Source of the DNA: Yonghaparkia sp. Root332
GTDB taxonomy: Bacteria > Actinomycetota > Actinomycetes > Actinomycetales > Microbacteriaceae
Length of the DNA: 64,000 nt
Reading direction: 5' to 3'
Assembly (NCBI RefSeq): GCF_001425665.1
Contig: NZ_LMCX01000001.1
Coordinates: 989,651-1,053,650 of the forward strand
Below the pieces are notes generated by a model. It was not told the origin of the DNA and did no database searches. It saw only the letters and a program-made list of their open reading frames with translations. Positions 935 through 23,688 of this stretch are shown piece by piece. The first letter of the stretch is position 1. Each line of letters starts with the position of its first letter. A program made the position numbers and the translations under genes.

Positions 935-1651
935 ATGGACATCGTGCTCATCCCCGGCTTCTGGCTCGACGGCGACTCGTGGAGCACGGTGACCCCGCCG
1001 CTCGCGGCCGCCGGCCACCGCGTGCATCCGCTCACCCTTCCCGGCAAGGAGGCCGACCCCGCGGCGCACGCCGGCATCGGCCTCGGGACGCACATCGATG
1101 CGGTGGTCGCCGAGCTCGACGCGCTCGCGGCAGCCGGCTCGACGCCCGTCGCGCTCGTCGGGCACAGCGGCGGGGCGGCGATCGCGTGGGGTGCGGCGGA
1201 CGCCCGACCCGAGCACATCGCCCGACTGGTGTTCGTCGACGCCTTCCCCCTCGGTGACGGCAGCGTCGTCAACGACGAGCTGCCCGTCGAGGGCGACTCG
1301 GTGCCGCTCCCGGCGTGGGACGTCTTCGAGGAGGCCGATCTGCGCGATCTCGACGACGAGCTGCGGTCGCGCTTCCGCGCGATCGCCGTGGCCGAGCCGG
1401 CGGGGGTGGCCCGCGATCCGCTGCGTCTGACGAACGAGTCGAGGTACCGCATCCCCGCGACGGTCATCGCGTGCGAGTTCCCGGCGTCCGACCTCGAGGG
1501 CGCGATCGAGCGCGGGGCGCCGTGGGCCGACGAGCTCGCGCGACTCGACGTGCTCGAGGTCGTCGAGCTGCCGACCGGGCACTGGCCGCAGCTGACGCGT
1601 CCCGTCGCCCTCGGCGAGAGCATCCTCGCCGCGGTCGGGCCCGCGCGGTAG
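935..1651 (+). CDS. Alpha/beta hydrolase
   Basis: A 238-residue cytoplasmic alpha/beta-hydrolase-fold protein. It begins with the typical first strand and oxyanion loop (IVLIPGFWLDG), has the nucleophile elbow GHSGG at about residues 80-84, and a late histidine in PTGHWPQL that could complete the triad. No signal peptide is present. The ATG sits about 6 bases after a TAGATT-like -10 element, which suggests a leaderless transcript. It is a single gene convergent with the XPB helicase. Esterase or lactonase activity is plausible, but the substrate is unknown. Confidence 0.85.
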   Translation: MDIVLIPGFWLDGDSWSTVTPPLAAAGHRVHPLTLPGKEADPAAHAGIGLGTHIDAVVAELDALAAAGSTPVALVGHSGGAAIAWGAADARPEHIARLVFVDAFPLGDGSVVNDELPVEGDSVPLPAWDVFEEADLRDLDDELRSRFRAIAVAEPAGVARDPLRLTNESRYRIPATVIACEFPASDLEGAIERGAPWADELARLDVLEVVELPTGHWPQLTRPVALGESILAAVGPAR

Positions 1652-1680
1652 CGAGGGCGGCGGCTCCTCCGCGGCCGCTC

Positions 1681-3330: not shown

Positions 3331-3374
3331 AACGGGCCAGTCTAGGTGCGCCGGCTGAGAGGGGCGGGCGCGCC

Positions 3375-12357: not shown

Positions 12358-12429
12358 GCCTCTGTAGCTCAATGGAAGAGCAGTTCCGTCCTAAGGAAAG
12401 GGTTGGGGGTTCGAGTCCCTCCAGGGGCA
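12358..12429 (+). tRNA. tRNA-Arg (anticodon CCT)
   Basis: The 72-nt sequence folds as a tRNA: acceptor GCCTCTG / CAGGGGC (one G-U), D arm GCTC / GAGC, anticodon loop GTCCTAA giving CCT (decodes AGG), T arm GGGGG-TTCGAGT-CCCTC. CCA is not encoded. The accessory island begins right after its 3' end, as is common for tRNA genes used as integration sites. Confidence 0.93.
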
Positions 12430-12438
12430 CGCAGGGCC

Positions 12439-12477
12439 GATTGCGGAAATGTCGGATCTCGATTGCGGAAATGTGGC
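12439..12477 (+). repeat. Tandem copies of GATTGCGGAAATGT after tRNA-Arg
   Basis: GATTGCGGAAATGT occurs at 12439-12452 and again at 12461-12474, ten bases past the tRNA. A longer version (GATCTCGATTGCGGAAATGTGGC, 12455-12477) matches 23530-23552 at 20 of 23 positions in the same orientation. This could be an integration boundary or an insertion-sequence end remnant. Confidence 0.5.
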
Positions 12478-12589
12478 GATCTGACCGGCCGCTGTCCACC
12501 CCGGCAGGCGCTGCTCCGACACGCCCGATCGGGCTGTGTGTTGCGTAGGACGTCAGGGCGACATACGTTCGACCTACGTCAACGAAGAA

Positions 12590-12623
12590 GCCCCCGGCAG
12601 ATGCGCCAACATCCACCGGGGGC
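12590..12623 (-). terminator. Terminator of the small zinc-ribbon gene
   Basis: GCCCCCGG / CCGGGGGC (8-bp stem, 18-base loop) lies 30 bp downstream of the minus-strand zinc-ribbon gene. Read on that strand it is followed by CTTCTTCG, a T-rich tail. Confidence 0.55.
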
Positions 12624-12652
12624 GTTGCTAGTACAGCTAGCCGTTGATTCTC

Positions 12653-12784
12653 TTACCGGAGATTGAACGCCCTGCGGCACCGCGAGCAGGACACGAGCCC
12701 CGGCGTGCGCAGGCGTACGCCGGGGAGCTCGTGCCTGAAGTGGCAGTACGGACAGGTGACGATCAGGGCGGGGATGCGGCGCAT
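12653..12784 (-). CDS. Small zinc-ribbon protein
   Basis: A 43-residue protein with two cysteine pairs, CPYC (10-13) and CSRC (34-37), flanking a beta-hairpin-like LPGVRLRTPGLVS. It should bind one zinc ion. ATG at 12782-12784 follows AGGAAGGAG by 6 bases; the frame is open further upstream, but that part lacks a start with a good site. It is the first gene of the island on this side and its role is unknown. Confidence 0.65.
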   Translation of the reverse strand: MRRIPALIVTCPYCHFRHELPGVRLRTPGLVSCSRCRRAFNLR

Positions 12785-13071
12785 CTCATGCTCCTTCCTG
12801 GCCGGCTTAGCAGCCGGACCTTCTTTGTGGTGCCCGAACGGTCGCCCGAGCACCACAACGGTACGTCCGCCTACAGACATCGAAGCGACACCACATCTAG
12901 TGGGCGTGTCCTCCACAGCTGTGCATATCTTGTGGTTTGAGTTCTCCACAGGGGCCTCGCTCGAAATCCCCGCCACTGATGGAGCCGGCCCCGCTTGTCC
13001 TCACCGTGTCCTCCAAAATGGGGACAACGCTGTGGAGAACTCGTAGGGCGGGTCGGTGCCGAGTTGATTGC
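12785..13071. repeat. Repeat-rich noncoding segment beside DDE gene
   Basis: No gene is seen. The segment holds a perfect 13-bp inverted repeat, GAGTTCTCCACAG at 12939-12951 and CTGTGGAGAACTC at 13030-13042. It also has two direct copies of GTGTCCTCCA exactly 100 bp apart (12906-12915, 13006-13015). An inverted copy, CGGAGGACAC, occurs at 17917-17926 on the far side of the recombinase module, so these may be element ends or binding sites. Confidence 0.5.
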
Positions 13072-15102
13072 CTAACCAGCGAGCTTGAGAGCCTGCAGTC
13101 GAGAGAGGCGCCGCCTCTTCCGTCTGCGCTGCTCGCGGGCTGCCACCAGTCTCGCGACCTCCTCCATGTCGCCGATCCGACGCGCGGCCTTGACGTCCTC
13201 GCCACGACGACGATCCGCGATGATACGCCGGCGGCTCATCTCCGCCTCCGAGAGAGGCATCAACGTCGGAGTCACCGCCCAGGTCGTCCCGGCCGCAACT
13301 TCCTGGACGACAGGCTTCTTCACCACGCGCGGAGGCTTCGGAGGATCGATGAGGAAGGTACGGACCTTGCGGAGGTTGCTCGCGGTGACCAGGAACGCCG
13401 CAAGGACGTACTGCGCCGCGTGGCCACGGAGCCGCCGGCGGCTGCTCCGGCCAGCCTGCTCGGGCGTGTTCTCCTTCAGGTAGCCGTTGTAGCCCTCCAC
13501 GATCGTCCGCTGGGCGTACTGGATGAGGAACTCCTCGGAGCCCCAGATCAGGCCCTGCCGATGACGGGCCCATTCTTCGAACGGGATCGACACGGACTCC
13601 TCGTTCGTGCAGATCTTGCCGGGGTGGTCAGGAAGGTTCGAGGGCAGGATCGGCAGGAGCACTTTTCCCTCGGGGACTGCGCTGCTCCGAGGCTTCAGCG
13701 GGCAGGAGACCGTGGCGTTCGGTCCGGCCGCCGGGCAGGTGATGACCAGAGCGCCGCCGGGCTTGGGCTTCTGCTTCTGCTTCAGCTCGTACGGCCGCAG
13801 CGCGTTCACGGCCCGGACGAGTCGCTCTTTCGCGGGCTCTCTCTCCTCGCTAGGACGCTGACGGTCCTGGAAAACCACCGCCGTGTTGAAGGGCTCCTCG
13901 AGCAGCGCCTTGGGCGTCGCCGGGCAGAAGTGGCGGCCGACCAGTTGCAGGCCGCCACCAGATCCCCCCTGAACCCCGGTCTTGCCCGGCACCTTCGTCC
14001 CGTCGGAGCGGGTCTCCGGGAGGAGATCGAAAATGACCTCGTAGCCCATGGCGATGATCGGGTACCGGAGCTTCTCCGGAAGAGCCTGCGTGTAGGCGGC
14101 ATCACCGATCCAGTAGCCGGCCGGATGACCCCGATCGCGAATCGACGCAGTGCAGTTCACTGCCTCGAGCGCGAACGCCTTGCCCGGGCGGTGGAATGAC
14201 ATCCCGGCGGCCAGGTCGGGGAACTGCGGCTCGTCGAACGGAGAGTTCGGCAGCCAGATCGCGAGCGTGGCCTCGTAGCCGTTGACGAGCTTGCCCTTCT
14301 TCGCGTTGTCGCCGTCGTGGTCTCCCTCTCGCACGTATGGGCCGGCGTCTCTGTCGGAGGAGGACCGTCCGGTGTGGATGTTGGTGGTTTGCCGCGCGAA
14401 GGCGTCGAAGAGCGTCGCGTCGACCGCGATGTTGCCCTTCCACTGGTCGCGGTAGACCGCCGGCAGAGTCCGAATACTGGCCTCCAGCAGATGGTTGGCC
14501 AGCCAGTCAAGGCGCGCAAGCATCACTTCGACGTTCGGATCGTCGTTCTCCTCATCCGTGAGTCGCTGGTGCTCCTCTGCGGACACCCGCGTGCGCCGCT
14601 CGGACGGAAAGGGATCGATGCTCTCGATCCAGGAGTCGAAGGCTCGCCGGATCCGGGTGCATCGACCCTCCTCCCGGATGGCGTGCTCGGGAATGCCGAT
14701 CCGAGCGACCTGGTCGCTGGTCAAGCGTCCTACCAGCTCGTCGATCCGGGTCATGAGGATCGGCTTTTCGTCGAACAGGGTGACGAGGATCAGGATGAAG
14801 ATGTGCCGGATGGTGAACTCGCTGCGCCGTCCGGCGCGACCTCGCGCTCCGCGAAGCTTCATCCGGTACTCCTCAGCCCACACCTCGAGCTGCGGCACGA
14901 CACCGGATCCGTCGATGAAGGCGATCGCTCGGTCGATGGCGACGTCAGACACCCCTCCGATGTTGTGCAGTTCGGCGTACTCGCCGTTCGGGCCGAAGAT
15001 GAGGAGCTTCTCCCCGTCGAGAGTCGCCTCTCCGGCGTGCGCGAGGCGCAGGCTGATCTCCTTACGGGGCGGGTTCTTGGGTCCCAGTCCCTTGGCGCTC
15101 AT
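13072..15102 (-). CDS. DDE transposase-like protein, IS4-type YREK signature
   Basis: A 676-residue protein with the landmarks of an IS4/IS1182-type DDE transposase: first Asp D228 in NIAVDATLFDAF, second Asp D334 in YWIGDAAYTQAL, and Y529-R532-E536-K543 in YAQRTIVEGYNGYLK, which fits Y(2)R(3)E(6)K exactly. An insertion with C393, C456, C467 and C498 may bind zinc. The C-terminal 90 residues are basic (RRRIIADRRR; EQRRRKRRRLSRL). ATG at 15100-15102 overlaps the stop of the upstream recombinase gene (ATGA), so the two are coupled. It is longer than most single-gene IS transposases, and coupling to a tyrosine recombinase is unusual. Confidence 0.75.
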   Translation of the reverse strand: MSAKGLGPKNPPRKEISLRLAHAGEATLDGEKLLIFGPNGEYAELHNIGGVSDVAIDRAIAFIDGSGVVPQLEVWAEEYRMKLRGARGRAGRRSEFTIRHIFILILVTLFDEKPILMTRIDELVGRLTSDQVARIGIPEHAIREEGRCTRIRRAFDSWIESIDPFPSERRTRVSAEEHQRLTDEENDDPNVEVMLARLDWLANHLLEASIRTLPAVYRDQWKGNIAVDATLFDAFARQTTNIHTGRSSSDRDAGPYVREGDHDGDNAKKGKLVNGYEATLAIWLPNSPFDEPQFPDLAAGMSFHRPGKAFALEAVNCTASIRDRGHPAGYWIGDAAYTQALPEKLRYPIIAMGYEVIFDLLPETRSDGTKVPGKTGVQGGSGGGLQLVGRHFCPATPKALLEEPFNTAVVFQDRQRPSEEREPAKERLVRAVNALRPYELKQKQKPKPGGALVITCPAAGPNATVSCPLKPRSSAVPEGKVLLPILPSNLPDHPGKICTNEESVSIPFEEWARHRQGLIWGSEEFLIQYAQRTIVEGYNGYLKENTPEQAGRSSRRRLRGHAAQYVLAAFLVTASNLRKVRTFLIDPPKPPRVVKKPVVQEVAAGTTWAVTPTLMPLSEAEMSRRRIIADRRRGEDVKAARRIGDMEEVARLVAAREQRRRKRRRLSRLQALKLAG

Positions 15103-16010
15103 CGGACAGCCCCTGACCCGCGCATGAGTCTGTCGGCTGACTCGCTGTCTCGCTGGACGTGATCGAGGTATCGCTGGAACGAGTCCAGTGTGGTGTTCCC
15201 TGCTGTGGCGAGCAGAAGGTCCAGCGGTGTTCCGAACTGGAGGTGAGTGACGAGCCAGGTCACTCGCATCCGTCGTGAGTCGGGCCCGCCTGACTTGGTC
15301 GTGAAATCGCCGACGTAGTTTCCGCCGGAGACCTCGCCCGTGACGCCGACGAGATGATCGGTCTCTCCGGCCTCCTCCAGCGACAGGTGGAGAAGCGGCT
15401 CCCAGTCGTGGAGAAGCGGAACGGTTCGAGGATGGCCGACCGTCACGTTGACGCTCAGGCCGCCCGGCAGGTGCAGCACGTCTGCGCGCCTCACGCCCGC
15501 CATCTCTGCAGCGCGAAGCCCCGCTCCCATCCCCAGCGCGGCGATGGCGCAGGCAGTCCGTCGGTGGTTCGCATCGCGTCGGGACTTGGCCCACGACTCG
15601 ATAAGGGAGTAGTCCGACGGATCGAACGGCGCGGGAGAGCGGTGGCGCTGAGGCCGCGTGAAACGCACGCCGAGCGGTTCGCTGTCGACGAGCGTCAGAC
15701 GGGCCTGGCGGAGTGTGGTCCGCGCGTGGGGGTTGTCCGCGTGGCCCTTCCTCACCCGAAGCGCGATGTGATGCTCGACGACTGCCTCGGAGAGCACCGT
15801 CTCGGGGGTCAGGTCCCACCCCTGCTCCCAGCAGTGGGCCGCCAGTCGTGTCAGGTTGAAGAGCAGGTCCTTCGTGAGCGCGACAGGCGCGGGCCCGATC
15901 TGCTCCATCCATTCCAGGAGTCGCGGTCGGATCATCGCCCACGCCTCGCCATCGATCCGCGGCGAGTAGTCATGGAGCTGCTTGCGCCAGCGCTGCTCGC
16001 GGTCGGCCAT
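15099..16010 (-). CDS. Tyrosine-recombinase-like protein A
   Basis: A 303-residue protein. Residues 130-285 resemble the tyrosine recombinase catalytic domain: GMGAGLRAAEM places catalytic R166, RRMRVTWLVTHLQFG gives R249, and SFQRYLDHV gives nucleophile Y281. The usual His of the HxxR motif is Arg, and the second His/Trp position is Gly (ATAGN), so it is a divergent member. The N-terminal 120 residues resemble the core-binding domain. ATG at 16008-16010 follows GGAGG. It is coupled to the DDE gene (4-base overlap) and divergent from the HTH gene across 39 bp. Confidence 0.72.
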   Translation of the reverse strand: MADREQRWRKQLHDYSPRIDGEAWAMIRPRLLEWMEQIGPAPVALTKDLLFNLTRLAAHCWEQGWDLTPETVLSEAVVEHHIALRVRKGHADNPHARTTLRQARLTLVDSEPLGVRFTRPQRHRSPAPFDPSDYSLIESWAKSRRDANHRRTACAIAALGMGAGLRAAEMAGVRRADVLHLPGGLSVNVTVGHPRTVPLLHDWEPLLHLSLEEAGETDHLVGVTGEVSGGNYVGDFTTKSGGPDSRRMRVTWLVTHLQFGTPLDLLLATAGNTTLDSFQRYLDHVQRDSESADRLMRGSGAVR

Positions 16011-16049
16011 GGGGCCTCCGCCAGACGCACTGTCGAGTACGCTCGCGCC

Positions 16050-16325
16050 ATGGCTCGAACCACCCGTCCGACGCCTCGGGAGCTGGCCGTCGACTGGCCG
16101 CGAGTCGCTTCCGGCGATCCCATCGGGGAGATCGCGCGAGGCTTCACGCTGAACCTCATCGAGGCGATCGGTGATCGCAGTCTGCGCAGCGTCGCCGAAT
16201 CCACCGGCGTGGGGCATGCGAGTCTGTCGCGCATCATCGAAGGCCAGCTGTGGCCGGACATGTGGACTGTCGCCCGTCTGGAGCGAGGTCTCGGCAGGGC
16301 GCTGTGGCCCCGCGGGGACGAGTGA
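16050..16325 (+). CDS. Small XRE-like HTH regulator
   Basis: A 91-residue protein. Residues 36-85 form a helix-turn-helix (DRSLRSVAESTGVGHASLSR, then W-WTVARLERGL) like small lambda-repressor-type regulators. The ATG has no clear ribosome site, so translation may be leaderless. It is divergent from recombinase A and convergent with recombinase B, the classic place for a regulator of the module or a directionality factor. Confidence 0.72.
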   Translation: MARTTRPTPRELAVDWPRVASGDPIGEIARGFTLNLIEAIGDRSLRSVAESTGVGHASLSRIIEGQLWPDMWTVARLERGLGRALWPRGDE

Positions 16326-16396
16326 GTTGGATTCCATGTAAAGCCCTATGCGGGCTTGTTCGGATCGGCCGGAGTGTGAGCCTCACCTGGCCCCCG

Positions 16397-17314
16397 CTAC
16401 ATGGCATGTCGAAGCTCCGCGTCGGCAAGCTCGTCCATCGGTGCGTCGGCGAAGGGCATGAAGCGGTTCAGTGATTCCAGCGAGCTGAACCCTGCTGCGC
16501 GGGACAGCGCGATGAGGTGCGTACCAGCGCTGATGTGGCGGATGAGCCATGTGGCGCGCAACCGCTGCATGTTCGGCCGGGCGCTCGGGGCTCCCGCAGA
16601 CTTCGCGATGAAGTTGGTCACCAGGTTCAGGTGGTGGCCGCGGGGGCCCGGCCGAAACACCCAGTCGCGGTCATCGAGATCAACGCACGCGTCGGCCAAT
16701 GGCGATTCCCACGATGCCAGTAGCGGAACCCGCCGCGGTCTCGGCCCTCGGACCTCGACCGTCGTCCCACCCGGTTCGCGCGTGAGGTCGCCGCGACGGA
16801 GGTGGAGCAGTTCCGACGAGGTGAGACCTGCGCCCGCCCCGAGCGAGACCAGAGCGAGAGCGCTCCCGCACCTCCACCGGCCGGATTGGGTTCGCGCCCA
16901 CCAGGCGAGCTCGCCCAGCTCTTCGGATGTGTACGGCCGACTCGGTTCGGAGCCAGGGAGCGCTGCGAGTCGACGAGGCGTCCCCTCGGGGCCGATCGCT
17001 TCCGCGATCCTCAGCAGGATCGGGCGGACACACGTCCGACTGCCAGCGGACAGATTCGGCATCTGATTCGACACGGCGAAGTCGATGACCTCGCGCCGGA
17101 GCGCCGTGGCTGTCTCGAGCGGCCAGCCGAGTTCAACACACGCCCTGGCCAGGTTGCAGAGCGCATGGATGATTCGACGCGGTGGGTAGCTGACCAGGGG
17201 AGCCGCTGCCGTGGCTGTCTCCAGCACGAAGGGCCCGATGGTTGTCCACTCCGAGGCGGAAGACTTGGCCTGATACAGGCGCAGCGTGCTCTCCAGCAGC
17301 TTCGTGTCGGACAT
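16397..17314 (-). CDS. Tyrosine-recombinase-like protein B, catalytically degenerate
   Basis: A 305-residue homologue of recombinase A with the same layout (LGAGAGLTSSELLHLRRGDL, FIAKSAGAPSARPNMQRLRA, LRATWLIRHISAG). The first catalytic Arg is replaced by Thr (T165) and the nucleophilic Tyr by Phe (F285 in SLNRFMPF); R253 remains. It is therefore probably a structural or regulatory partner and not an active recombinase. ATG at 17312-17314 is used here; an in-frame ATG at 17330-17332 is possible. Divergent from the 171-residue gene across 43 bp. Confidence 0.68.
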   Translation of the reverse strand: MSDTKLLESTLRLYQAKSSASEWTTIGPFVLETATAAAPLVSYPPRRIIHALCNLARACVELGWPLETATALRREVIDFAVSNQMPNLSAGSRTCVRPILLRIAEAIGPEGTPRRLAALPGSEPSRPYTSEELGELAWWARTQSGRWRCGSALALVSLGAGAGLTSSELLHLRRGDLTREPGGTTVEVRGPRPRRVPLLASWESPLADACVDLDDRDWVFRPGPRGHHLNLVTNFIAKSAGAPSARPNMQRLRATWLIRHISAGTHLIALSRAAGFSSLESLNRFMPFADAPMDELADAELRHAM

Positions 17315-17343
17315 GGTGATTACTATCGCCATTACCCCCGACA
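17305..17343. promoter_or_regulatory. Possible divergent operator
   Basis: The gap between recombinase B and the 171-residue gene is framed by the inverted pair TGTCGG (17305-17310) and CCGACA (17338-17343), with a second imperfect pair GGTGAT/ATTACC inside. It may bind the HTH protein of the module; this is inference from position. Confidence 0.3.
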
Positions 17344-17357
17344 ATGGAGGAGCCCCG

Positions 17358-17873
17358 ATGCACACTGCCGCCCCGCAGGCCCGATCGTTGCCTGTCCACG
17401 AGCACCCGACCCTCAACCGGATGGCCACCGCCCGTAGGCTCCAGCTTGTCGCTGAAACGGACTTCCAGCCCTTCCTCTTCGGGTGGAGGAACCGATCAGG
17501 CGAGTCGCACTACAGCTCGAACCTGCTGACGCTCGTCGATCTGCTTGGCCGGGTGGGCCACACGGAGGAGTGGGCATGGGTGACCACCTGGCCGGTGGAC
17601 GATCCGGCTGCCATCGCCCAGGCATGCGGACGTGTGGACCGCGGGTTCGTCGTCGAAGTCGGCTGGCGATGGACCACAAGTCAGATTGTCCGACTCGGTG
17701 CTGCCCACTTCCCGCGCGTGAACGTTGCGACGCCGCGGTGGGCCCGCTGGAGCTCGCTCGATGAGCTCCACGGACTGGGGGAGGCGGCAACGATCATGGG
17801 CGACTGGCTGATCGACCGGGAGATCGGACAGGGCTTCGAGAGTCGCGCGCCCGACCCATACGCGTCACGATGA
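17358..17873 (+). CDS. Unknown 171-residue protein of the recombinase module
   Basis: I do not recognise this family. ATG at 17358 follows GGAGGAG by 5 bases. The protein is rich in Trp (RWRWTTSQIVR-like segment, VATPRWARWSSLDEL) with an alpha/beta look, no signal peptide and no membrane segment. An early segment, RRLQLVAETDFQPFLFGWRN, is followed by SSNLLTLVDLLGRVGHTEEW. It is divergent from recombinase B and the last coding gene before a noncoding stretch, so it may be a cargo or accessory gene of the module. Confidence 0.65.
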   Translation: MHTAAPQARSLPVHEHPTLNRMATARRLQLVAETDFQPFLFGWRNRSGESHYSSNLLTLVDLLGRVGHTEEWAWVTTWPVDDPAAIAQACGRVDRGFVVEVGWRWTTSQIVRLGAAHFPRVNVATPRWARWSSLDELHGLGEAATIMGDWLIDREIGQGFESRAPDPYASR

Positions 17874-18189
17874 CATCGGACATCCATGTCCCCCCGAAGG
17901 ACAGAGCGCGGACATTCGGAGGACACACCTGTCCCGTGGTGTCTCGCCACATCGGACGTGCACGTCTCGCGCTCGGGACAAGCAGCGTGGGCGAAGGTCG
18001 CGCCGCGACGAGAAGATCTACCAGCCTCGCGGTGCCAAGCGAGCGTGGAGCGGCTCCCACTTTGCCTGCCACGGATCGGCGTCCTAACGACGGGCCTCGG
18101 AAGTCGCGAGCCAGCTGTCGCGCTGAGGGGAACGGCGATACCGTCTGGATGCGGGGTCAGGTTTGACAAGGACGGGATAACGTGGCGCC
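17874..18189. other. Noncoding stretch after the recombinase module
   Basis: About 315 bases with no convincing gene. It contains GGACAT-CC-ATGTCC (17878-17891), the CGGAGGACAC copy (17917-17926) inverted relative to those near 12.9-13.0 kb, and a perfect 12-bp palindrome GACGTGCACGTC (17955-17966). A GGATAAC-like -10 just before 18190 probably drives the next operon. Confidence 0.5.
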
Positions 18190-18720
18190 GTGCAGGCTGC
18201 AGCCGAGGAGTCCGACCGATCCGCGAAGAGCGGCAGCCTGTTTCCGCCAATGCGATGGTGGGTGCCGGCCGCATCTGCGGCGCTGCTGGTCTTGTTCCTG
18301 ATCGCGGTAGTCGCCATCCTCGTGCGGCCGCCGGGGCCTCTCGATGACCCTCGGCCAGCGTTCCAGCGGGATGGACTTCTCCGTGATGGACCGGTACTCG
18401 ATGCCGACGTCGCGGGTGTTCGATTCGGGGAGCGCACTGTGATCGTGCTCTTCGAGCGGGAGGAACCCGAAGGCCGAACGTGGGACCAGTGGTCCGCGGA
18501 CGTGACTTCGGGTGGCGCCGCGTTGGTCGTCGTGACGCCGGTTCAGGTTGCCCACGGATCGTTGGTGGACGCGATCGGCATGCCCGCACCGGTCGATGGC
18601 GGGCCGCCCATCGGCTACGCGGTGGTCGATTCGAGCCGCCAGGTGCGGTACGCAACGATCGACCCCCAGTACCTCAAGAACGCCTTCGAAGTCGACGTCA
18701 TCAGCGGGGCCGTGGAATGA
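18190..18720 (+). CDS. Membrane-anchored protein, cassette copy 1 gene 1
   Basis: A 176-residue protein with a single N-terminal membrane segment (about residues 23-45, after MRWWVPAA) and a 125-residue outside domain starting RPPGPLDDPRP. Conserved segments are FGERTVIVLFE, APVDGGPPIGYAVVD and VRYATIDPQYLKNAFEVDV. It is clearly paralogous to the protein at 61671-62189 (roughly 60 percent identity by eye). GTG start; its stop overlaps the next gene's ATG (ATGA). I do not recognise a named family. The redox- or thioredoxin-like rhythm of the outside domain is only a suggestion. Confidence 0.75.
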   Translation: MQAAAEESDRSAKSGSLFPPMRWWVPAASAALLVLFLIAVVAILVRPPGPLDDPRPAFQRDGLLRDGPVLDADVAGVRFGERTVIVLFEREEPEGRTWDQWSADVTSGGAALVVVTPVQVAHGSLVDAIGMPAPVDGGPPIGYAVVDSSRQVRYATIDPQYLKNAFEVDVISGAVE

Positions 18721-19199
18721 GAGCAGAGCATCGGCCCGGCGCGTCCAGCTATCGAGCGCTCCATCCGCGTTCATTGATGATCCAGCTGGCGCTTCTGCTA
18801 GTCGTTGAGGTCCTGCTGTTCCTGAGCTACAGCGTCCACGACGCCCGATTCCACTGGGCGACCCACTTCCTCGTCGCCGTGATCGTGGCGATAATCGTCA
18901 TGGCGATCTACCTCCGCGTGCGGAAGGCACCGGGTCCGCGTTTCCTCCTCATGCTCGTCCTCGGGCTTCACGTCTTCGCTATGGCGCCGGACCTGCTGTT
19001 CCGGGCAGGAGCTCCTCACGCTGCATGGATGGACATCTTCCTCGGGCACGTATCTGCGCACTACATGCCGGGAGGTGACACGACATGGCTCGTCATCGCC
19101 GTGACCGCGATCACCGGCTACGTCGTCGCGCTAACGCGATGGCTTCGATCACAAGCTCCCGAAGCTGGCACCATCGACCGTGGCGGCGTGGACAGATGA
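18717..19199 (+). CDS. Multi-pass membrane protein, cassette copy 1 gene 2
   Basis: A 160-residue protein with four predicted membrane segments and the conserved stretches [36 protein letters not shown] and GHVSAHYMPGGDT. The histidine- and aspartate-rich loops near the membrane could bind metal. It overlaps the preceding gene by 4 bases and is paralogous to 61225-61674. The gene pair forms a conserved cassette; function unknown. Confidence 0.75.
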   Translation: MRAEHRPGASSYRALHPRSLMIQLALLLVVEVLLFLSYSVHDARFHWATHFLVAVIVAIIVMAIYLRVRKAPGPRFLLMLVLGLHVFAMAPDLLFRAGAPHAAWMDIFLGHVSAHYMPGGDTTWLVIAVTAITGYVVALTRWLRSQAPEAGTIDRGGVDR

Positions 19200-19276
19200 G
19201 CCGAGATCGGGCCTCTGCTGCCCCGCGACCCGCTCACACACAGTCATTCCGCACCACCTCGTGGCACTATTGCCGC

Positions 19277-19735
19277 GTGAGAATCGGCCTGAGCACGACG
19301 AGCGCGCGCGCGATGAGTCTGCTCATCGCGCTGGCACTTGCCCTGTTCGGAGCGCTGATGGCAGGGCACGGCGCGGGATCGGCGAGCCACGACGAGCACA
19401 CGCTCTCCGCCGCTCTCACCATCGACACTCACTCGAGCATTCAGGCGCCGCCTGCATCCAGCCACCACGCCGGATCTTCGGCGCTCACTGCCAACCCGGG
19501 CGAAGTCCCTCCCACAGACACGTGTTCGACCTGCCTCACTGAGGGGCAGATGCACGTGCTGACGGTTTGCGGCCTTCTCATCATGTCCGCGGTGACGCTG
19601 CTGCTCATGCCCCGGTGGCGCGAATCGATCCACCGAGCTGCGGAAGCGATCGGCCTCCTGGTCGCGCAGACGGCTGTTGCTGCCGTCGGCGCAGCGACCC
19701 CGAACCTTCTCTCGCTCGGCATCAGTCGCAGGTGA
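19277..19735 (+). CDS. DUF6153-like membrane protein
   Basis: A 152-residue protein with an N-terminal membrane segment (SLLIALALALFGALMAGHG), a His/Ser-rich outside loop including CSTC, and a second membrane segment (HVLTVCGLLIMSAVTLLLM). This matches the DUF6153 pattern, proteins often found beside DUF305 lipoproteins in copper-related loci. I prefer the GTG at 19277, 7 bases after a CACTAT -10-like element; an in-frame ATG at 19196 overlapping the upstream stop would add 27 residues. Confidence 0.65.
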   Translation: MRIGLSTTSARAMSLLIALALALFGALMAGHGAGSASHDEHTLSAALTIDTHSSIQAPPASSHHAGSSALTANPGEVPPTDTCSTCLTEGQMHVLTVCGLLIMSAVTLLLMPRWRESIHRAAEAIGLLVAQTAVAAVGAATPNLLSLGISRR

Positions 19736-19800
19736 TGCGCGGAGCTCGGTTTCCCGCCGACTCCACTGCTCACCAGACAACACCGACAGATGAAGGACCA

Positions 19801-20427
19801 ATGATGACCACCAATGCAATGCGGCGCGCCCTCGCGGGCGCCCTGACCCTCGCCGTGGCGGCGACCCTCACGGCCTGCGCGATGCCCTCCGACATGGACA
19901 TGAGCGCCGGAAACTCCGACCGGACAGCATCCTCCGCCCCCGACGCCTCGGTCGAGCCGAACAACGCCGACGTCATGTTCGTCGGCATGATGATCCCGCA
20001 CCATGAAGAAGCCGTCGAGATGGCCGACATGCTCCTCGAGAAGGACGGCGTCGAGTCGGAGGTGATCGAGCTTGCCGAGGCGATCAAGGCAGCGCAGGAG
20101 CCTGAGATCGAGTTGATGGAGTCCTGGCTCAAGGAGTGGGACTCGATGCCCGCCGAGGGCATGGGCGGCATGGATCACGGAGATTCTGGCATGGGCTCGA
20201 TGATGGGCATGTCCGAGGAGGACATGCAGGCTCTGGAGGAAGCGCCGGGCCCCGAGGCGGGTGACCTGTTCCTGGAGCTGATGATCGTGCACCATGAAGG
20301 GGCGATCGTCATGGCGCAGGACGTGTTGGATGACGGCCGCCACCCGGACGTCCTCGACCTGGCGACCCAGATCATTTCCGATCAGGCAGCCGAGATCGAG
20401 CTGATGCGCTCGATGCTCGACTCATGA
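19801..20427 (+). CDS. DUF305 lipoprotein
   Basis: A 208-residue exported lipoprotein: signal peptide with lipobox LTAC, lipidated C26. Two copies of the DUF305 four-helix motif follow (NADVMFVGMMIPHHEEAVEM; LFLELMIVHHEGAIVM), with conserved HH pairs separated by a Met/Gly/Asp/His-rich linker (MGGMDHGDSGMGSMMGM). Met- and His-rich segments of this kind commonly bind Cu. AAGGA precedes the ATG. It overlaps the next lipoprotein gene by 4 bases. Role in periplasmic metal handling is inferred. Confidence 0.88.
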   Translation: MMTTNAMRRALAGALTLAVAATLTACAMPSDMDMSAGNSDRTASSAPDASVEPNNADVMFVGMMIPHHEEAVEMADMLLEKDGVESEVIELAEAIKAAQEPEIELMESWLKEWDSMPAEGMGGMDHGDSGMGSMMGMSEEDMQALEEAPGPEAGDLFLELMIVHHEGAIVMAQDVLDDGRHPDVLDLATQIISDQAAEIELMRSMLDS

Positions 20428-21326
20428 TCGCGCCGAAGGCGGCACTCGCAGCGGTCGTGACCGCCCTCACATTGTTCATCGCTGGGTGTACAGCGCCGGA
20501 CGCTGAGGGCAACCGGGAGGAGGTGCCCGCGCCGGAGTTCCAAGCTGGCGTATCGCATGTCCACGCGATCGACCTCGACGAGATGACCGGATTCGTCCAC
20601 ATCGCCACCCACGAGGGCATCCTTCTTGCGGGCATGCCGCACGATGGCGAGACCGTCTCAGAGGCGAATCCCCTCGGAGACTGGCGAGGCGATGCGATGG
20701 GGCTGGTTCGAGTGGGCGATCGTCTGCTCGTCTCGGGGCACCCTGGACCGACTGAGGAGGGGCCGGGCGCTATCGGGCTCCGCGAGTCCGACCTCTCCGG
20801 CGATGAGTGGACAGCGATCAGCCTGGAAGGCGAGGCCGATTTTCACTCGCTCGCAGCGGGAGGCACCAGTCCGGGGATGTCCATGCTCGCCGGTGTGGAC
20901 TCCATCTCCGGGCGCGTGATGGTCAGCCCGGACGGCGGAGCTGGCTGGCAGCAGGGCGCCGCCATCGCAGCGGCGTCAGTGGCGTGGAATGCCGATGCTT
21001 CGGCGCTGCTCGCCACGACATCTAACGGCCTGGTCGTGAGTCGGGATCGAGGGCAGAGCTTCGAGGCGGTTCCGGATGCTCCTTACCTCGTGCTTCTCGC
21101 GTCGAGCCCGACGGAGTCCGACACCTTCACCATGGTCGGCATCGACGTTCAGGGTGTCCTGCACCGCTCGACCGACGGCCTGACGTGGGAGGCGGTCGGG
21201 GCTGTCCCCCTCGAGCCGGCCGCCATCTCGGTAGGCATGACCGGTGCGATCATCGTGGCGGACACCACACAGGTCATGCATTCAGTGGACGGCGGAACCA
21301 CCTGGAACCTGATCGTCGCTCTCTGA
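20424..21326 (+). CDS. BNR/F510_1955-type lipoprotein
   Basis: A 300-residue exported lipoprotein (lipobox IAGC, lipidated C22) with a beta-propeller-like sequence of repeated short strands: VHAIDLDEMTGFVHIATHEG, GRVMVSPDGGAGW, GLVVSRDRGQSFEAV, MHSVDGGTTWNLI. The Asp-box-like repeats (S-D-G-G-xx-W) place it with sialidase/BNR propellers and the F510_1955 family, which commonly follows DUF305. Its ATG overlaps the DUF305 stop. Probably a surface metal-response protein; catalytic activity is not evident. Confidence 0.8.
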   Translation: MIAPKAALAAVVTALTLFIAGCTAPDAEGNREEVPAPEFQAGVSHVHAIDLDEMTGFVHIATHEGILLAGMPHDGETVSEANPLGDWRGDAMGLVRVGDRLLVSGHPGPTEEGPGAIGLRESDLSGDEWTAISLEGEADFHSLAAGGTSPGMSMLAGVDSISGRVMVSPDGGAGWQQGAAIAAASVAWNADASALLATTSNGLVVSRDRGQSFEAVPDAPYLVLLASSPTESDTFTMVGIDVQGVLHRSTDGLTWEAVGAVPLEPAAISVGMTGAIIVADTTQVMHSVDGGTTWNLIVAL

Positions 21327-21416
21327 TCCGCAGTGCCGGCGGGGTGGGACCAGTCGTGCTGGACCCACTCCGCTGGCGGGCGGCAGACCGAACCAGAAAT
21401 GCCAGCCCCGGTGCGA

Positions 21417-21440
21417 ACAGTACATCGTCCGATGTACAGT
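21417..21440. promoter_or_regulatory. CmtR-type operator overlapping promoter
   Basis: ACAGTACATCG-TC-CGATGTACAGT is a nearly perfect inverted repeat (10 of 11 positions). It ends 6 bp before the regulator's ATG, so it covers the -10 region of what looks like a leaderless promoter. Binding of the ArsR-family repressor here would block its own operon. Confidence 0.75.
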
Positions 21441-21446
21441 TTTGCC

Positions 21447-21785
21447 ATGACCTCTATGTCCTTGTCCCGCCTCGACGCCATTCGCCGCATCGGGAAGGCC
21501 CTCGCCGACCCGACGCGCGCGGCGATTCTCTTGGCACTGCTCGACGAACCCCGCTATCCGGCTGATCTGGTCGATGAGCTTGGGATCACCAAACAGAACG
21601 CGTCGAACCACCTCGCCTGCCTTCGCGACTGCGGCATCGTCGTTGCCGAGCCGGCAGGCCGACGGGTTCTATACGACATCTCCGACGCTCGTCTCCGTCA
21701 CGCGCTGCAGGATCTCGTCGGCGTCGTGCTCGCCGTCGACCCCGAGGACGCTTGTGATGTCCACGCCGGATCGGTGCCCGCATGA
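21447..21785 (+). CDS. cmtR: CmtR-like Cd/Pb-sensing ArsR-family repressor
   Basis: A 112-residue winged-helix repressor. The helix-turn-helix spans about 36-66 (PADLVDELGITKQNASNHLA). C58 and C62 (LACLRDCG) plus C103 (EDACDVH) match, with one residue of offset, the Cd/Pb ligands Cys57, Cys61 and Cys102 known for mycobacterial CmtR. Metal binding should release it from the palindrome at 21417-21440. It is followed, with 4-base overlaps, by two cation-diffusion-facilitator genes, consistent with a metal-efflux operon. Confidence 0.85.
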   Translation: MTSMSLSRLDAIRRIGKALADPTRAAILLALLDEPRYPADLVDELGITKQNASNHLACLRDCGIVVAEPAGRRVLYDISDARLRHALQDLVGVVLAVDPEDACDVHAGSVPA

Positions 21786-22486
21786 CCTTCCCAACCACCG
21801 TCGCGCCGGACGTCGCGCGGAGATCGGCGCTGCGTCGAAGGGTCAAGATTATTGTTGCCATCACCATCGTCTACAACGTCGTGGAGGGCGTCATCGCTCT
21901 CATCGCCGGGGCCGCCGCCGACTCGGCAGCGCTCATCGGGTTTGGGCTGGACTCCGGCGTCGAGGTCCTTTCCGCGACCGCGGTGGCCTGGCAGTTCACC
22001 AGACGAGACCCTGAACGGTATGAGAAGCCGGTGCTTCGGGTGATCGCGTTCGCCTTCTTCGCTCTGGCCGCGTATACCATCGTCGGCTCGACCCTGTCGT
22101 TGACTGGGTTGAGCACGCCCGAGTCCAGCGGCGTGGGGATCGCGCTCGCCGCCATCAGTGTCGTCGTGATGCCCGTCCTCTCTCTGATCGAGCGACGCAC
22201 CGGACGAGAGCTTGGATCAGCGACTGTCGTGGCCGACTCCAAGCAGACCCTCATCTGCTCCCTGTTGTCGGCGGCGGTCCTGTTGGGTCTTGTCGCTAAC
22301 GCGACGCTCGGATGGGCATGGGCGGATGCCGTCGCCGCTCTCGTGATCGGCGCCTTCGCTATCCGCGAGGGTATTGAAGCGTGGAACGGCGACACGTGCT
22401 CGACCGCGATCGGCGAGCTGATGGAGCACAAGGATCCAGATGCCGATGGCGGCGACGCGATCTCCAGCCGCGGAGCCGGCGTATGA
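21782..22486 (+). CDS. Cation transporter, CDF-like
   Basis: A 234-residue protein with six predicted membrane helices and no cytoplasmic metal-binding tail, as in the shorter TMEM163/CDF-like cation transporters. Conserved membrane acidic residues appear in GFGLDSGVEVLSA and again in VVADSKQTLICSLLS and WADAVAAL. ATG overlaps the cmtR stop (ATGA), and its own stop overlaps the next CDF gene. Likely exports Cd, Pb or Zn across the cytoplasmic membrane; specificity is inferred from the regulator. Confidence 0.82.
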   Translation: MTFPTTVAPDVARRSALRRRVKIIVAITIVYNVVEGVIALIAGAAADSAALIGFGLDSGVEVLSATAVAWQFTRRDPERYEKPVLRVIAFAFFALAAYTIVGSTLSLTGLSTPESSGVGIALAAISVVVMPVLSLIERRTGRELGSATVVADSKQTLICSLLSAAVLLGLVANATLGWAWADAVAALVIGAFAIREGIEAWNGDTCSTAIGELMEHKDPDADGGDAISSRGAGV

Positions 22487-23394
22487 CCGAAGAGCCGCAC
22501 AGTCATGGGACCGCGAGTAGCTCTCCTCGGCGCCTAGCGATTGCGTTCGGGCTGACGCTCAGCGTTTTCATCGCCGAGGTGATCGGCGCAATCGTCACCG
22601 GTTCGCTTGCTCTGTTGGTTGACGCAGCCCACATGCTCACCGACGCTGGCGGCCTTCTTGTTGCTCTCCTGGCGGCTCGACTCATGGTGCGCCCGGCGAC
22701 CTCGCGCCGTACGTGGGGGTTTCGTCGCGCTGAGGTCCTCGCAGCGACGGCGCAGTCCGCGGTGCTTCTTGGGGTAGGGCTCTTCGTGGCCATCGAGGCG
22801 ATCCAGCGTCTCAGCGACCCGGCAGAGGTCGGGGGGCCCGAGCTGCTCGTCTTCGGCGTCATCGGGCTCGCGGCCAACCTCACCGCGGTCGTCGTGCTGG
22901 CCGGGGGACGGCGCGAGAATCTCAATATGCGGGCGGCGTTCCTCGAGGTTCTCAACGACACGCTCGGATCGGTGGCCGTCATCGTTGCGGCTGTCGTGAT
23001 CGCCACCACCGGTTTCCAGCAGGCCGATTCGATCGCCGCGCTTCTCGTCGGTGTTCTCATCATCCCGCGCACGGTGCGACTGCTCCGTGATGCCGTGGAC
23101 GTGCTGCTGGAGTCTGTGCCACGAGGGGTCGACCTCGAAGCCATTCGGCAGCACCTCCTCGACGAGGAACACGTGGTCGACGTCCACGATCTGCACATCA
23201 CGCAGATCGCGACAGGCCTGCCGGTTCTCACTGCACACGTGATCGTCGAGGACGGGTGCTTCCACGATGGCCACGCTCCCGAAATCACCGAGGCGCTCGA
23301 AACCTGCGTCGCAGAACACTTCTCTGTCGCCATCGGCCACTCGACCTTCCAGCTGGAGCCTGCAGAAGCGGGCCGATCGCACGACCTCCACTGA
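22483..23394 (+). CDS. Cation diffusion facilitator (CzcD-like) efflux protein
   Basis: A 303-residue CDF antiporter. Six membrane helices hold the site-A motif VDAAHMLTD (D47, H50, D54), with FLEVLNDTLGS as the second site where the usual His is Glu. The C-terminal cytoplasmic domain (about 210-295) has the ferredoxin-like fold residues VDVHDLHI and the conserved GH-STFQ end. ATG overlaps the previous stop. It should export divalent metal in exchange for protons, as the third gene of the CmtR-controlled operon. Confidence 0.88.
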   Translation: MTEEPHSHGTASSSPRRLAIAFGLTLSVFIAEVIGAIVTGSLALLVDAAHMLTDAGGLLVALLAARLMVRPATSRRTWGFRRAEVLAATAQSAVLLGVGLFVAIEAIQRLSDPAEVGGPELLVFGVIGLAANLTAVVVLAGGRRENLNMRAAFLEVLNDTLGSVAVIVAAVVIATTGFQQADSIAALLVGVLIIPRTVRLLRDAVDVLLESVPRGVDLEAIRQHLLDEEHVVDVHDLHITQIATGLPVLTAHVIVEDGCFHDGHAPEITEALETCVAEHFSVAIGHSTFQLEPAEAGRSHDLH

Positions 23395-23688
23395 CCGTCG
23401 AACCATCGTGGAGCCGCGGCTCGTCAGCTCCTGATCATCGGGGGTGCCGGTGATTCACCTTGTTGTCGCGGTGTCGCCCCGCTACGGTCAGCGATGGGAT
23501 TTTTGTAGCCACAGCGTGGGATCGTCATCGATCTCGTTTGCGGATATGTGCCCGAAGTTCGCCTGTGGTTCGCCTGAAGCGCGGAGGGCGGGCTCATTCC
23601 GCAAACCCCCCACGCACGGCACCATGCGCGGGGACAGGGTCCTGCCGTGGTCGTAGGGTCCTCCACCGAGGCCAGTGAGGCGGCGTCC
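23395..23688. other. Right edge of island, noncoding
   Basis: No gene seen. Contains GATCTCGTTTGCGGATATGTGCC (23530-23552), an imperfect copy of the repeat next to tRNA-Arg. An inverted partner CCGCAAAC lies at 23599-23606, and GTTCGCCTG occurs twice (23557-23565, 23568-23576). Codon composition returns to the high-GC backbone right after this stretch. A TAGGGT-like -10 near 23655 may drive the PAP2 gene. Confidence 0.5.

Follow-up and report, generated by a model that had tools for sequence, protein, structure and literature searches.

Tn7-like transposons are defined by a TnsB-type transposase with a TnsC ATPase and TniQ/TnsD, and Tn7 itself has repeated 22-bp sites at its ends, asymmetric ends, and 5-bp duplications. 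In Tn3 elements of the Tn4430 type, the DDE protein TnpA is accompanied by the tyrosine recombinase TnpI, an active resolvase at an internal site. Tn554-type elements possess the active tyrosine recombinases TnpA and TnpB together with TnpC, and no DDE protein. Tyrosine recombinases classically integrate at tRNA 3' halves, and the overlap length of many of them is 5–7 bp.

The closest precedent for the locus described here is TnsF of the Tn7-type element Tn6022, an inactivated tyrosine recombinase that was experimentally shown to target comM (PMC10293859). CyCAST inserts about 30–33 nt downstream of a tRNA through TnsD (PMC10293859). The IS1202 family, with ISAjo2, consists of DDE elements with 5-bp duplications lying in a fixed orientation 5 bp from the XerC site, and the authors of the ISAjo2 study raise direct contact with XerC, a tyrosine recombinase (PMC10132070).

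Overall organization of the element

The window, a stretch of 64,000 nucleotides, contains a transposon of 11.2 kb (12434–23611) at the 3' end of tRNA-Arg(CCT). We consider it likely that this is a DDE transposon that inserts at tRNA 3' ends, with an inactive, coupled tyrosine-recombinase-like protein (TyrR) as its probable target selector. The first-pass annotation had suggested a possible composite mobile element at 13072–17873; the genes given there are real, but the mobile unit is longer. Its features are as follows.

12358–12430, plus strand: tRNA-Arg(CCT), the target (ARAGORN, sequence); 3' end toward the element, discriminator base A at 12429
12429–12433, no strand: left copy of the 5-bp target duplication, ACGCA, beginning at the discriminator base
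12434–12451, plus strand: left terminal inverted repeat, GGGCCGATTGCGGAAATG
12438–12452, plus strand: tRNA-proximal direct repeat, copy 1, CGATTGCGGAAATGT (15/15, period 22)
12460–12474, plus strand: tRNA-proximal direct repeat, copy 2
12653–12976, minus strand: possible small zinc-ribbon ORF (weak Pfam Zn_ribbon_4 match below the cut-off)
13072–15102, minus strand: putative DDE transposase, 676 aa, D228/D334/E536
15099–16010, minus strand: TyrR-A, 303 aa, predicted tyrosine-recombinase fold, catalytically degenerate
about 16050–16325, plus strand: divergent small HTH protein, probable regulator (Pfam HTH_31/HTH_3 below the cut-off)
16397–17329, minus strand: TyrR-B, a further tyrosine-recombinase-like protein, also degenerate, with Thr in place of Arg I and Phe in place of Tyr
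17358–17873, plus strand: P0005, gene of 171/195 aa, probably cargo (near-identical copy in genome G702 only)
18190–23394, plus strand: cargo, namely a DUF305 protein, an ArsR-type regulator, two cation-efflux proteins, and unknowns (Pfam)
23594–23611, minus strand: right terminal inverted repeat, GGGGGGTTTGCGGAATGA read on the minus strand
23612–23616, no strand: right copy of the 5-bp duplication, ACGCA

The 676-residue protein with D228, D334, and a YREK signature, predicted from the letters by the first-pass annotation, was borne out, and the residues conserved in the alignment fit this signature. Its gene overlaps that of TyrR-A by 4 nt (15099–15102), and TyrR-B has the Thr and Phe substitutions that had been read there. 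TyrR-A does have the arginines of Arg I and Arg II and the nucleophile Tyr, as stated; however, it is also degenerate, which had gone unmentioned: Arg occupies the first His column, Val follows Arg II, and Asn takes the place of the box III His. The divergent HTH gene is present, and 31 of the 54 full-length DDE loci have a homologue at some position of the stretch fetched for them. The fifth gene also exists but lies outside the conserved set: no other P0005 homologue was found in the 59 loci compared, and its near-identical copy is located in cargo common to the window and G702. The zinc-ribbon ORF lies within extra DNA that separates the left end from the DDE gene, which is 642 bp from the tRNA.

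Comparison with known systems

The pairing of a DDE enzyme with a tyrosine recombinase recalls Tn4430, but TyrR is without catalytic residues; Tn554-type elements differ in the same respect and, moreover, in having no DDE protein. As in Tn6022 and the Tsy loci, the transposon carries an inactivated protein of the tyrosine-recombinase fold, and, like Tsy loci, it also has a small HTH gene and another recombinase gene (PMC10293859). Tn6022 uses Tn7 components with a TniQ hub, of which none was recognised in the window's element, and TnsF combines zinc fingers with two CB domains and a shortened CAT domain, whereas TyrR keeps the CB and CAT fold whole (PMC10293859). The targets here are tRNA 3' ends, and the comparison with Tn6022 covered the fold. 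A Pfam scan of genes of the window's element detected no TnsB-type transposase, TnsC ATPase, or TniQ/TnsD, and none of these proteins is among the annotated genes of five plasmid stretches.

A candidate for a dedicated selector of the Tn7-like kind is the conserved, inactive TyrR partner, which one locus (L021) lacks. Site-specific insertion by a dedicated selector, with tRNA genes as homing sites, is also known from Tn7 and the tRNA-homing CASTs (I-B2, I-D) (PMC10293859). Unlike in CyCAST, the insertion point is the discriminator base, and neither an ATPase nor TniQ was recognised. Repeated end sites of about 22 bp, ends that differ from each other, and 5-bp duplications are further traits in common with Tn7. 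The element resembles IS1202/ISAjo2 as a DDE element with 5-bp duplications in a fixed orientation; those elements are single-gene insertion sequences with a TnsB-modelled transposase, involve a host recombinase at most, and target dif instead of a tRNA (PMC10132070).

Conservation and distribution

The elements form an unannotated transposon family that is common in one family of actinobacteria. Of 299 genomes from the family to which the window belongs (Microbacteriaceae), 52 contain relatives of the DDE gene. A TyrR gene is located directly upstream of the DDE gene in 51 of the 54 full-length DDE loci (46 by rule, 5 by inspection), a coupling far beyond chance, and at least two same-strand TyrR genes are found in the stretch at 29 of them. 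Each of 14 delimited elements has one DDE gene or fragment, and 12 have one or two TyrR genes. The first-pass annotation did not recognise the arrangement and proposed counting it elsewhere; the two genes adjoin almost everywhere, and the arrangement is that of a conserved, widespread family, not a one-off. The insertion at tRNA 3' ends that defines the family was absent from that annotation.

An alignment (A3) had no sufficiently conserved stretch, and a closer subset of six rows (A4) led to 24 named loci. A search of genome contigs with the window protein confirmed no relative, and phage records queried with the DDE protein of L070 gave no match. Annotation pipelines probably miss these elements, because the window DDE protein had no match above the cut-off in four protein-family libraries and the plasmid records that were examined list the products of both the DDE and the TyrR genes as hypothetical proteins. 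A literature search, which left most subscription journals outside its coverage, found no description of this transposon family. A reading as a defence system is not supported, because PADLOC matched none of the five window proteins scanned.

Ends, target duplications, and mobility

A right end with an inverted repeat and a duplication was accepted at 14 of the 48 loci scanned and additionally, by eye, at L138. None was accepted at 34 of the 48, including 11 of the 20 in which about 30 kb was searched using added stretches. Candidates with weak or ill-placed repeats, among them those of L084, L072, and L095, were rejected by judgement; random 5-mers did as well as these in 0/55, 2/59, and 3/60 cases, respectively. 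In G702 (L129), a right-end duplication was sought and none was found. The duplication length is not constant but is 5, 6, or 7 bp among elements. The window element and L138 have an identical 5-mer at both ends. At L021 (genome G382), ends and a 7-bp duplication are present at tRNA-Leu and a TyrR gene was not detected; therefore, TyrR is perhaps dispensable, or it was lost from this element.

A single clean empty site was identified: G631 reads CTCGCGC-ACGAA-ACAAG and G474 reads CTCGCGC-ACGGA-[9.0 kb]-ACGGA-ACATG, with flanks that are 94–95% identical. Within one genus, near-identical left ends at the same tRNA adjoin three different 5-mers (ACGCA, ACCGA, and ACTGG), and one genome has no element at this site. 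Cargo of 3.8 kb is 96.65% identical between the window and G702, compared with 80–86% for the flanking chromosome, and the next 1.9 kb of cargo is only 74% identical in G702. The inverted repeats, the 5–7 bp duplications, and the empty site bear out the earlier view that this is a mobile element.

Insertion at tRNA 3' ends

At 43 of the 54 full-length DDE loci, the stop codon of the DDE gene lies within 300 bp of a tRNA 3' end that faces it, and the window adds a case at 642 bp; among other mechanical ORFs of at least 300 aa, this holds for 2 of 723. The targets span thirteen tRNA species, and that of L029 is the 3' end of tmRNA; at L031 and L093, 3' tRNA fragments of roughly 45 bp were seen by eye. 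The DDE loci of five Streptomyces plasmid records (two identical) do not lie at a tRNA. The orientation is fixed, with the DDE end toward the tRNA, and that end has a direct repeat with a period of 22–23 bp in 38 of 48 loci (shuffled controls, 134/960; other windows, 31/240). The left end often carries a terminator-like hairpin, as seen by eye. Related genomes (L080, L081, L083, and L084) share the tRNA-Ser(CGA) site, and the DNA that flanks the genes is similar among them on either side.

The repeats generated at the tRNA genes are short, 5–7 bp only. A long tRNA att repeat was sought in three elements by comparing the tRNA plus 8 nt with the right flank (words of at least 8 bp); L070 had no such word, and the longest measured 8 bp in L026 and 12 bp in L030, an element after which another left end follows.

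DDE and TyrR proteins

The DDE triad is highly conserved (D228, 53/56; D334, 57/58; E536, 57/57); in an alignment of 34 sequences, D228, D334, R532, and E536 are invariant and K543 nearly so. The AF2 model (pLDDT 84.0) has Tn5 transposase as its top four Foldseek matches, with E-values of 3e-3 to 6e-3 and none at or below 0.001. A structure prediction had been proposed as a check on the RNase H fold, and the model, in its resemblance to Tn5 transposase, indicates that fold with conserved D, D, and E. DDE_Tnp_1_6, which we take to represent IS4/IS1182-type transposases, matched 3 of 37 family members at 0.01, and at this threshold Pfam gave no family for the window protein or for 33 others. The YREK signature and the Tn5 matches likewise recall IS4/IS1182-type enzymes; unlike those compact insertion sequences, the present elements are multi-gene, cargo-carrying, and site-specific. 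From the inverted repeats, duplications, empty site, conserved triad, and Tn5-like predicted fold, the DDE enzyme very probably transposes the element, as the first-pass annotation had supposed.

By profile and structure model, the TyrR family keeps the tyrosine-recombinase fold (CB and CAT). The predicted structure of TyrR-A (pLDDT 92.6) has Cre as its best Foldseek match (E 7e-8), with XerA and XerH among the matches, and a profile of 36 members matched a XerC-like recombinase (1.2e-15) and XerA (2.8e-9) in the PDB; 14 of the 36 match Phage_integrase. Judged by its residues, the family has lost catalysis. Arg II is kept; Arg I is found in 19/85 rows, the first His in 1/84, and Tyr in 40/83, and the only row of 82 with the canonical R-H-R-(H/W)-Y set is that of an unrelated integrase at L028. 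Because of this loss, the earlier suggestion that the recombinase "resolves or targets" fails in its first half, and "targets" fits best. Since the triad of the DDE enzyme hardly varies, this protein most likely performs the strand chemistry, and TyrR is most likely a target selector or a binder of the element ends.

Proposed mechanism

The ends, duplication, orientation, site, gene coupling, and loss of TyrR catalytic residues were established by computation. In the mechanism that we propose, the Tn5-like DDE transposase with its RNase H fold would cut at terminal inverted repeats starting with GG(G), and the element would go directly 3' of the tRNA acceptor stem, DDE end toward the tRNA, with 5–7 bp duplicated from the discriminator base on. 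The mature tRNA sequence would be retained and the native terminator displaced. TyrR most likely would clamp either the 3' half of the tRNA gene, with its T arm and acceptor, or both the target and the 22-bp repeats, and bring the transposase to the site, much as TnsD or TnsF do in Tn7-like elements. Against this stand the variable duplication length, unusual for a DDE family, the plasmid records not located at a tRNA, L021 with no detectable TyrR, the right ends not found at 34 of 48 loci, the modest DDE Foldseek E-values, and the divergent 1.9 kb of G702 cargo.

With slightly more than even confidence, we further propose that DDE transposons with no recognised ATPase independently adopted inactive tyrosine recombinases as selectors of tRNA and tmRNA 3' halves, with lineages tuned to different tRNAs and the host gene spared, as a large family with a two-protein system for site-specific insertion. 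If true, this would be a second route, beside Tn7/Tn6022, to DDE safe-site targeting via an inactive tyrosine recombinase, one that apparently involves two or three proteins. The findings also suggest that DDE transposons may account for some tRNA-linked genomic islands now attributed to integrases.

Alternative explanations

The tRNA type clusters on the trees, with 16 changes on both the DDE and TyrR trees (shuffled labels: means 34.7 and 34.5, minima 30 and 31), which suggests that the element bears the specificity and that its lineages prefer different tRNAs; shared site inheritance adds to this signal. On 35 loci, the TyrR-B tree has 12 changes and those of DDE and TyrR-A 11 each. Because the trees tie at 16, they favour neither protein as the reader of the target. 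The DDE protein alone might recognise tRNA 3' ends, with TyrR-like proteins binding the 22–23 bp repeats or acting as regulators. This would agree with the tie and with the ends and duplication of L021, and IS1202-family insertion sequences reach dif sites with one DDE protein only (PMC10132070). We regard it as unlikely, however, because the two genes are coupled at 51 of 54 loci, L021 may have undergone decay, and tRNA 3' halves are classic tyrosine-recombinase targets. The different tRNA preferences of lineages and the short natural targets make the target-reading protein directly testable by swaps.

Integration by TyrR itself, in which inverted arms would flank a 5–7 bp overlap and the DDE protein would be an accessory or passenger, is improbable. 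None of the 81 family rows with six columns filled has the first His or the box III His/Trp, 67 of 82 have lost Arg I or Tyr, and 9 of the 12 delimited elements with TyrR genes, that of G474 among these, have no TyrR with Arg I; the DDE triad hardly varies. With a conserved overlap the sequence should be constant, and with Tn916-type coupling there should be two different sequences; the three 5-mers at one tRNA and the same 5-mer at both ends of the window element and L138 speak against this reading. It would nevertheless account for the choice of tRNA 3' ends and for repeats that vary in length as overlaps do, and a circle junction with inverted repeats around 5–7 bp would resemble a tyrosine-recombinase core site.

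That the pair is domesticated or vertically inherited, beside tRNA genes by chance, is scarcely credible: sites common to related genomes, such as tRNA-Ser(CGA), would fit, but the empty site, the different 5-mers at one tRNA, the genome with no element, the apparent tandem stacking, the 16 tRNA-type changes, and the near-identical cargo in two species contradict it. Elements at one tRNA seem to stack in tandem, and derivatives, either degraded or transposase-less, seem to remain.

Genes of the element

The first-pass annotation of the window had described a DDE transposase gene, an overlapping recombinase-like gene, a divergent HTH gene and a second recombinase-like gene. All four were confirmed in the transposon, which lies in a genome of 2.63 Mb:

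13072-15102, minus strand, DDE protein of 676 aa; overlaps the TyrR-A gene by 4 nt
15099-16010, minus strand, TyrR-A, a tyrosine-recombinase-like protein of 303 aa
about 16050-16325, plus strand, small divergent HTH gene
16397-17329, minus strand, TyrR-B, the second recombinase-like gene

Pfam, NCBIfam and PADLOC gave nothing above cut-off for the DDE protein or the two tyrosine-recombinase-like (TyrR) proteins. PHROGs gave no match for the DDE protein and weak integrase matches for the TyrR proteins (0.0018 and 0.0013). The 40 bp at 12888-12927, in the interval that separates the left end from the DDE gene, recur in the same genome, inverted and 93% identical, at G000:C1:1080569-1080608; an imperfect palindrome lies near them at 12687-12737.

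Distribution and gene coupling

Protein searches, with the window's genome counted, found DDE relatives in 13 of 396 genomes (10 of 237 genera) of the phylum and in 52 of 299 genomes (31 of 85 genera) of the family. We compiled 59 loci: the window, 13 regions from the phylum search (including the second copy in the window's genome), five plasmid loci (two of them identical) and 40 regions representing part of the family-search hits. Profile searches and a tally of these loci identified 54 whose DDE ORF is 480 aa or longer; they are not fully independent (L035 and L036 are identical, and identity is about 95% within the pairs L023/L024 and L081/L084).

The adjacency of DDE and TyrR genes first noticed in the window proved to be shared by nearly all of these loci. 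A TyrR gene is located immediately upstream on the same strand in 51 of the 54 loci, 46 by rule and five on inspection (the window, L022, L039 and L107, where the ORF start was over-extended, and L108). The TyrR gene of L022 is split over two frames. L108 (1871-5661) contains a tandem pair of DDE ORFs from the family with a 4-nt overlap, and the TyrR genes precede the first copy. The exceptions are L092 (TyrR 1.07 kb away), L099 (a TyrR fragment only) and L021 in genome G382, in which no TyrR gene was detected, although the element ends and a 7-bp duplication are present. The DDE and TyrR genes overlap by exactly 4 nt in 30 of the 54 loci; the fetched stretches contain HTH homologues in 31 and at least two same-strand TyrR genes in 29. 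TyrR was also upstream in 17 of 24 loci in named records.

Insertion at tRNA 3' ends

The 3' end of a tRNA gene faces the DDE stop codon within 300 bp in 43 of the 54 loci, and at 642 bp in the window. Among the other mechanically called ORFs of these loci that reach 300 aa or more, the same placement was found for 2 of 723. Thirteen tRNA species are represented among the 44 loci. In the 24 loci from named records, a facing tRNA lies within 400 bp in 16; four of these had already been counted, leaving 12 of 20 new loci.

In L029 (7226-9194), a tmRNA gene has its 3' end 1.6 kb away, followed by the same kind of element end; this points to a tRNA-like end being sufficient as a target. L031 and L093 adjoin 3' tRNA fragments, read by eye, and no whole tRNA was called at either locus; therefore, about 45 bp at the 3' terminus of the gene may suffice. 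L107 lies 2.8 kb from its tRNA, and L108 is close to a contig end. None of the five Streptomyces plasmid loci (L035-L039), which form the plasmid branch, is at a tRNA. The tRNA-side end of L037 adjoins an apparent CRISPR array, recognized by eye, beside type I-E cas genes.

Element ends and target duplications

Left (tRNA-side) ends mostly start with GG(G), within 5-7 nt of the tRNA discriminator. Direct repeats with a period of 22-23 bp were observed at this end in 38 of 48 loci, compared with 134 of 960 shuffles and 31 of 240 other windows. The left end in the window contains CGATTGCGGAAATGT twice, at a spacing of 22 bp.

To find right ends, we searched for the left-end sequence in inverted form with the tRNA discriminator base and its next four nucleotides behind it; a right end was accepted in 14 of 48 loci (the window, L021, L026, L030, L069, L070, L077, L078, L079, L080, L083, L087, L089 and L098). 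Random 5-mers equalled these in 0-3 of 54-60 trials at each locus. The search spanned about 22-30 kb for the window and 20 loci with added stretches, and about 11 kb or less for the other 27; right ends were found in the window, in 9 of the 20 (11 had none) and in 4 of the 27. The duplication in the window, ACGCA, occupies 12429-12433 and is repeated behind the inverted end at 23612-23616, which makes the element 11,178 bp long. Delimited elements range from 2.4 kb (degraded) to 28.4 kb.

The duplication is 5 bp in L069, L070, L089 and L098 and lengthens to 6 or 7 bp in several elements (GCGTCA, GCCAGA, ACTTCAC, ACTCGAT). It is 6 bp in L078, L080 and L083, which are Ser(CGA)/Ser(GCT) elements, and in the Pro element L087, and 7 bp in L021 and L077; its length may follow the element lineage. 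Elements seem to stack in tandem, because an apparent further left end directly follows those of L030, L069, L079, L083 and L089. L026 (G000:C1:369000-386000) is a second, degraded element of 2.4 kb in the window's genome, inserted at tRNA-Ser(CGA). Both of its ends are present, each junction shows GCGTT, and the DDE gene is represented by a fragment only (a 191-aa ORF).

Two repeats are present on the tRNA side and one was recognized in the right ends that were read. This inequality in repeat number would explain why the elements insert in one orientation, much as Tn7 is oriented by its unlike ends.

Empty site and mobility

The mobility proposed for these genes was borne out by an empty-site comparison. 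At tRNA-Leu(CAG), genome G474 reads CTCGCGC-ACGGA-[9.0 kb]-ACGGA-ACATGACAACCCC, and the related G631, with flanks 94-95% identical, carries the uninterrupted counterpart CTCGCGC-ACGAA-ACAAGACAACCCC.

Within the window's genus, near-identical left ends at the same tRNA-Arg are accompanied by differing 5-mers: ACGCA (window), ACCGA (G702) and ACTGG (G699). The G699 element (L138, about 935-3585) is about 2.65 kb long, with both ends and ACTGG on each side. It encodes a pyridine-nucleotide-disulphide oxidoreductase and a regulator judged MerR-like from its sequence; no DDE, TyrR or HTH homologue was detected in it, and it is probably a non-autonomous derivative. Cargo in G702 matches the window over 3.8 kb at 96.65% identity and over the next 1.9 kb at 74%; the flanking chromosome matches at 80-86%, and the 86% piece takes in the tRNA together with the initial 0.2 kb of the element. 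In G701, the DNA directly after the tRNA corresponds to window sequence lying 2.5 kb past the element.

Catalytic residues and predicted folds

Counts of the catalytic residues in an alignment of TyrR hits (89 rows) are as follows: Arg I, 19/85; first His, 1/84; Arg II, 82/84; Tyr, 40/83. Among the 82 rows with six catalytic columns filled, the full set occurs once; that row is an ordinary, unrelated integrase from L028 and served as a positive control for the columns. Arg I or Tyr is missing in 67 of the 82. Both Arg and Tyr are kept in 15, among them the window's TyrR-A and the control; apart from the control, these have none of the histidines. The DDE triad is conserved in 53/56, 57/58 and 57/57 proteins.

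Each of the 14 delimited elements has one DDE gene or fragment. Twelve contain one or two TyrR genes, and L021 and L026 contain none. Arg I is absent from every TyrR in 9 of the 12, including the G474 element, whose sole TyrR carries Thr in place of Arg I and Phe in place of Tyr; this is the same insertion that has an empty-site counterpart.

Structure prediction agreed with both enzyme assignments of the first-pass annotation. The AlphaFold model of TyrR-A (mean pLDDT 92.6) best matched Cre (E 7e-8), and also XerA and XerH, with TM-scores of ~0.5 or lower. The DDE model (pLDDT 84.0) resembles Tn5 transposase, which provided its top four matches at modest E-values (3e-3 to 6e-3); no match reached E ≤0.001. 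TyrR is thus predicted to retain the tyrosine recombinase fold, and its residues indicate that catalysis is lost. The DDE enzyme, judged in the same way, is the sole intact recombination enzyme common to the family. The element is therefore most likely a DDE transposon with a TyrR-derived partner.

Comparison with known systems

The Tn7-like Tn6022 is directed to comM by TnsF, an inactivated tyrosine recombinase; Tsy elements combine an active relative with a second recombinase and an HTH gene (PMC10293859). CyCAST homes about 30-33 nt downstream of a tRNA under TnsD guidance (PMC10293859), and IS1202-type elements insert beside XerC sites with 5-bp duplications (PMC10132070). None of these systems joins a Tn5-like DDE enzyme, a coupled inactive recombinase and a tRNA discriminator site. 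No description of this family was found in the literature searched, which excluded most subscription journals. We rate it among site-specific DDE transposons with a dedicated selector, TyrR being the putative selector.

Role of TyrR and target specificity

The gene coupling to the DDE enzyme, the retained Arg II and the precedent of TnsF, together with the fact that tyrosine recombinases classically prefer tRNA 3' halves, point to the same role; we therefore infer that TyrR functions in target selection. L021, at least one inserted element with no detectable TyrR, is the key exception to this targeting model.

Mapped onto the element trees (53 loci, 13 types), tRNA type changes 16 times, compared with shuffled means of 34.7 and 34.5 (minima 30 and 31). 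Because tRNA type is so strongly inherited along these trees, target specificity seems to belong to the element, with shared ancestral sites adding to the signal. The DDE tree and the TyrR tree fit tRNA type equally well.
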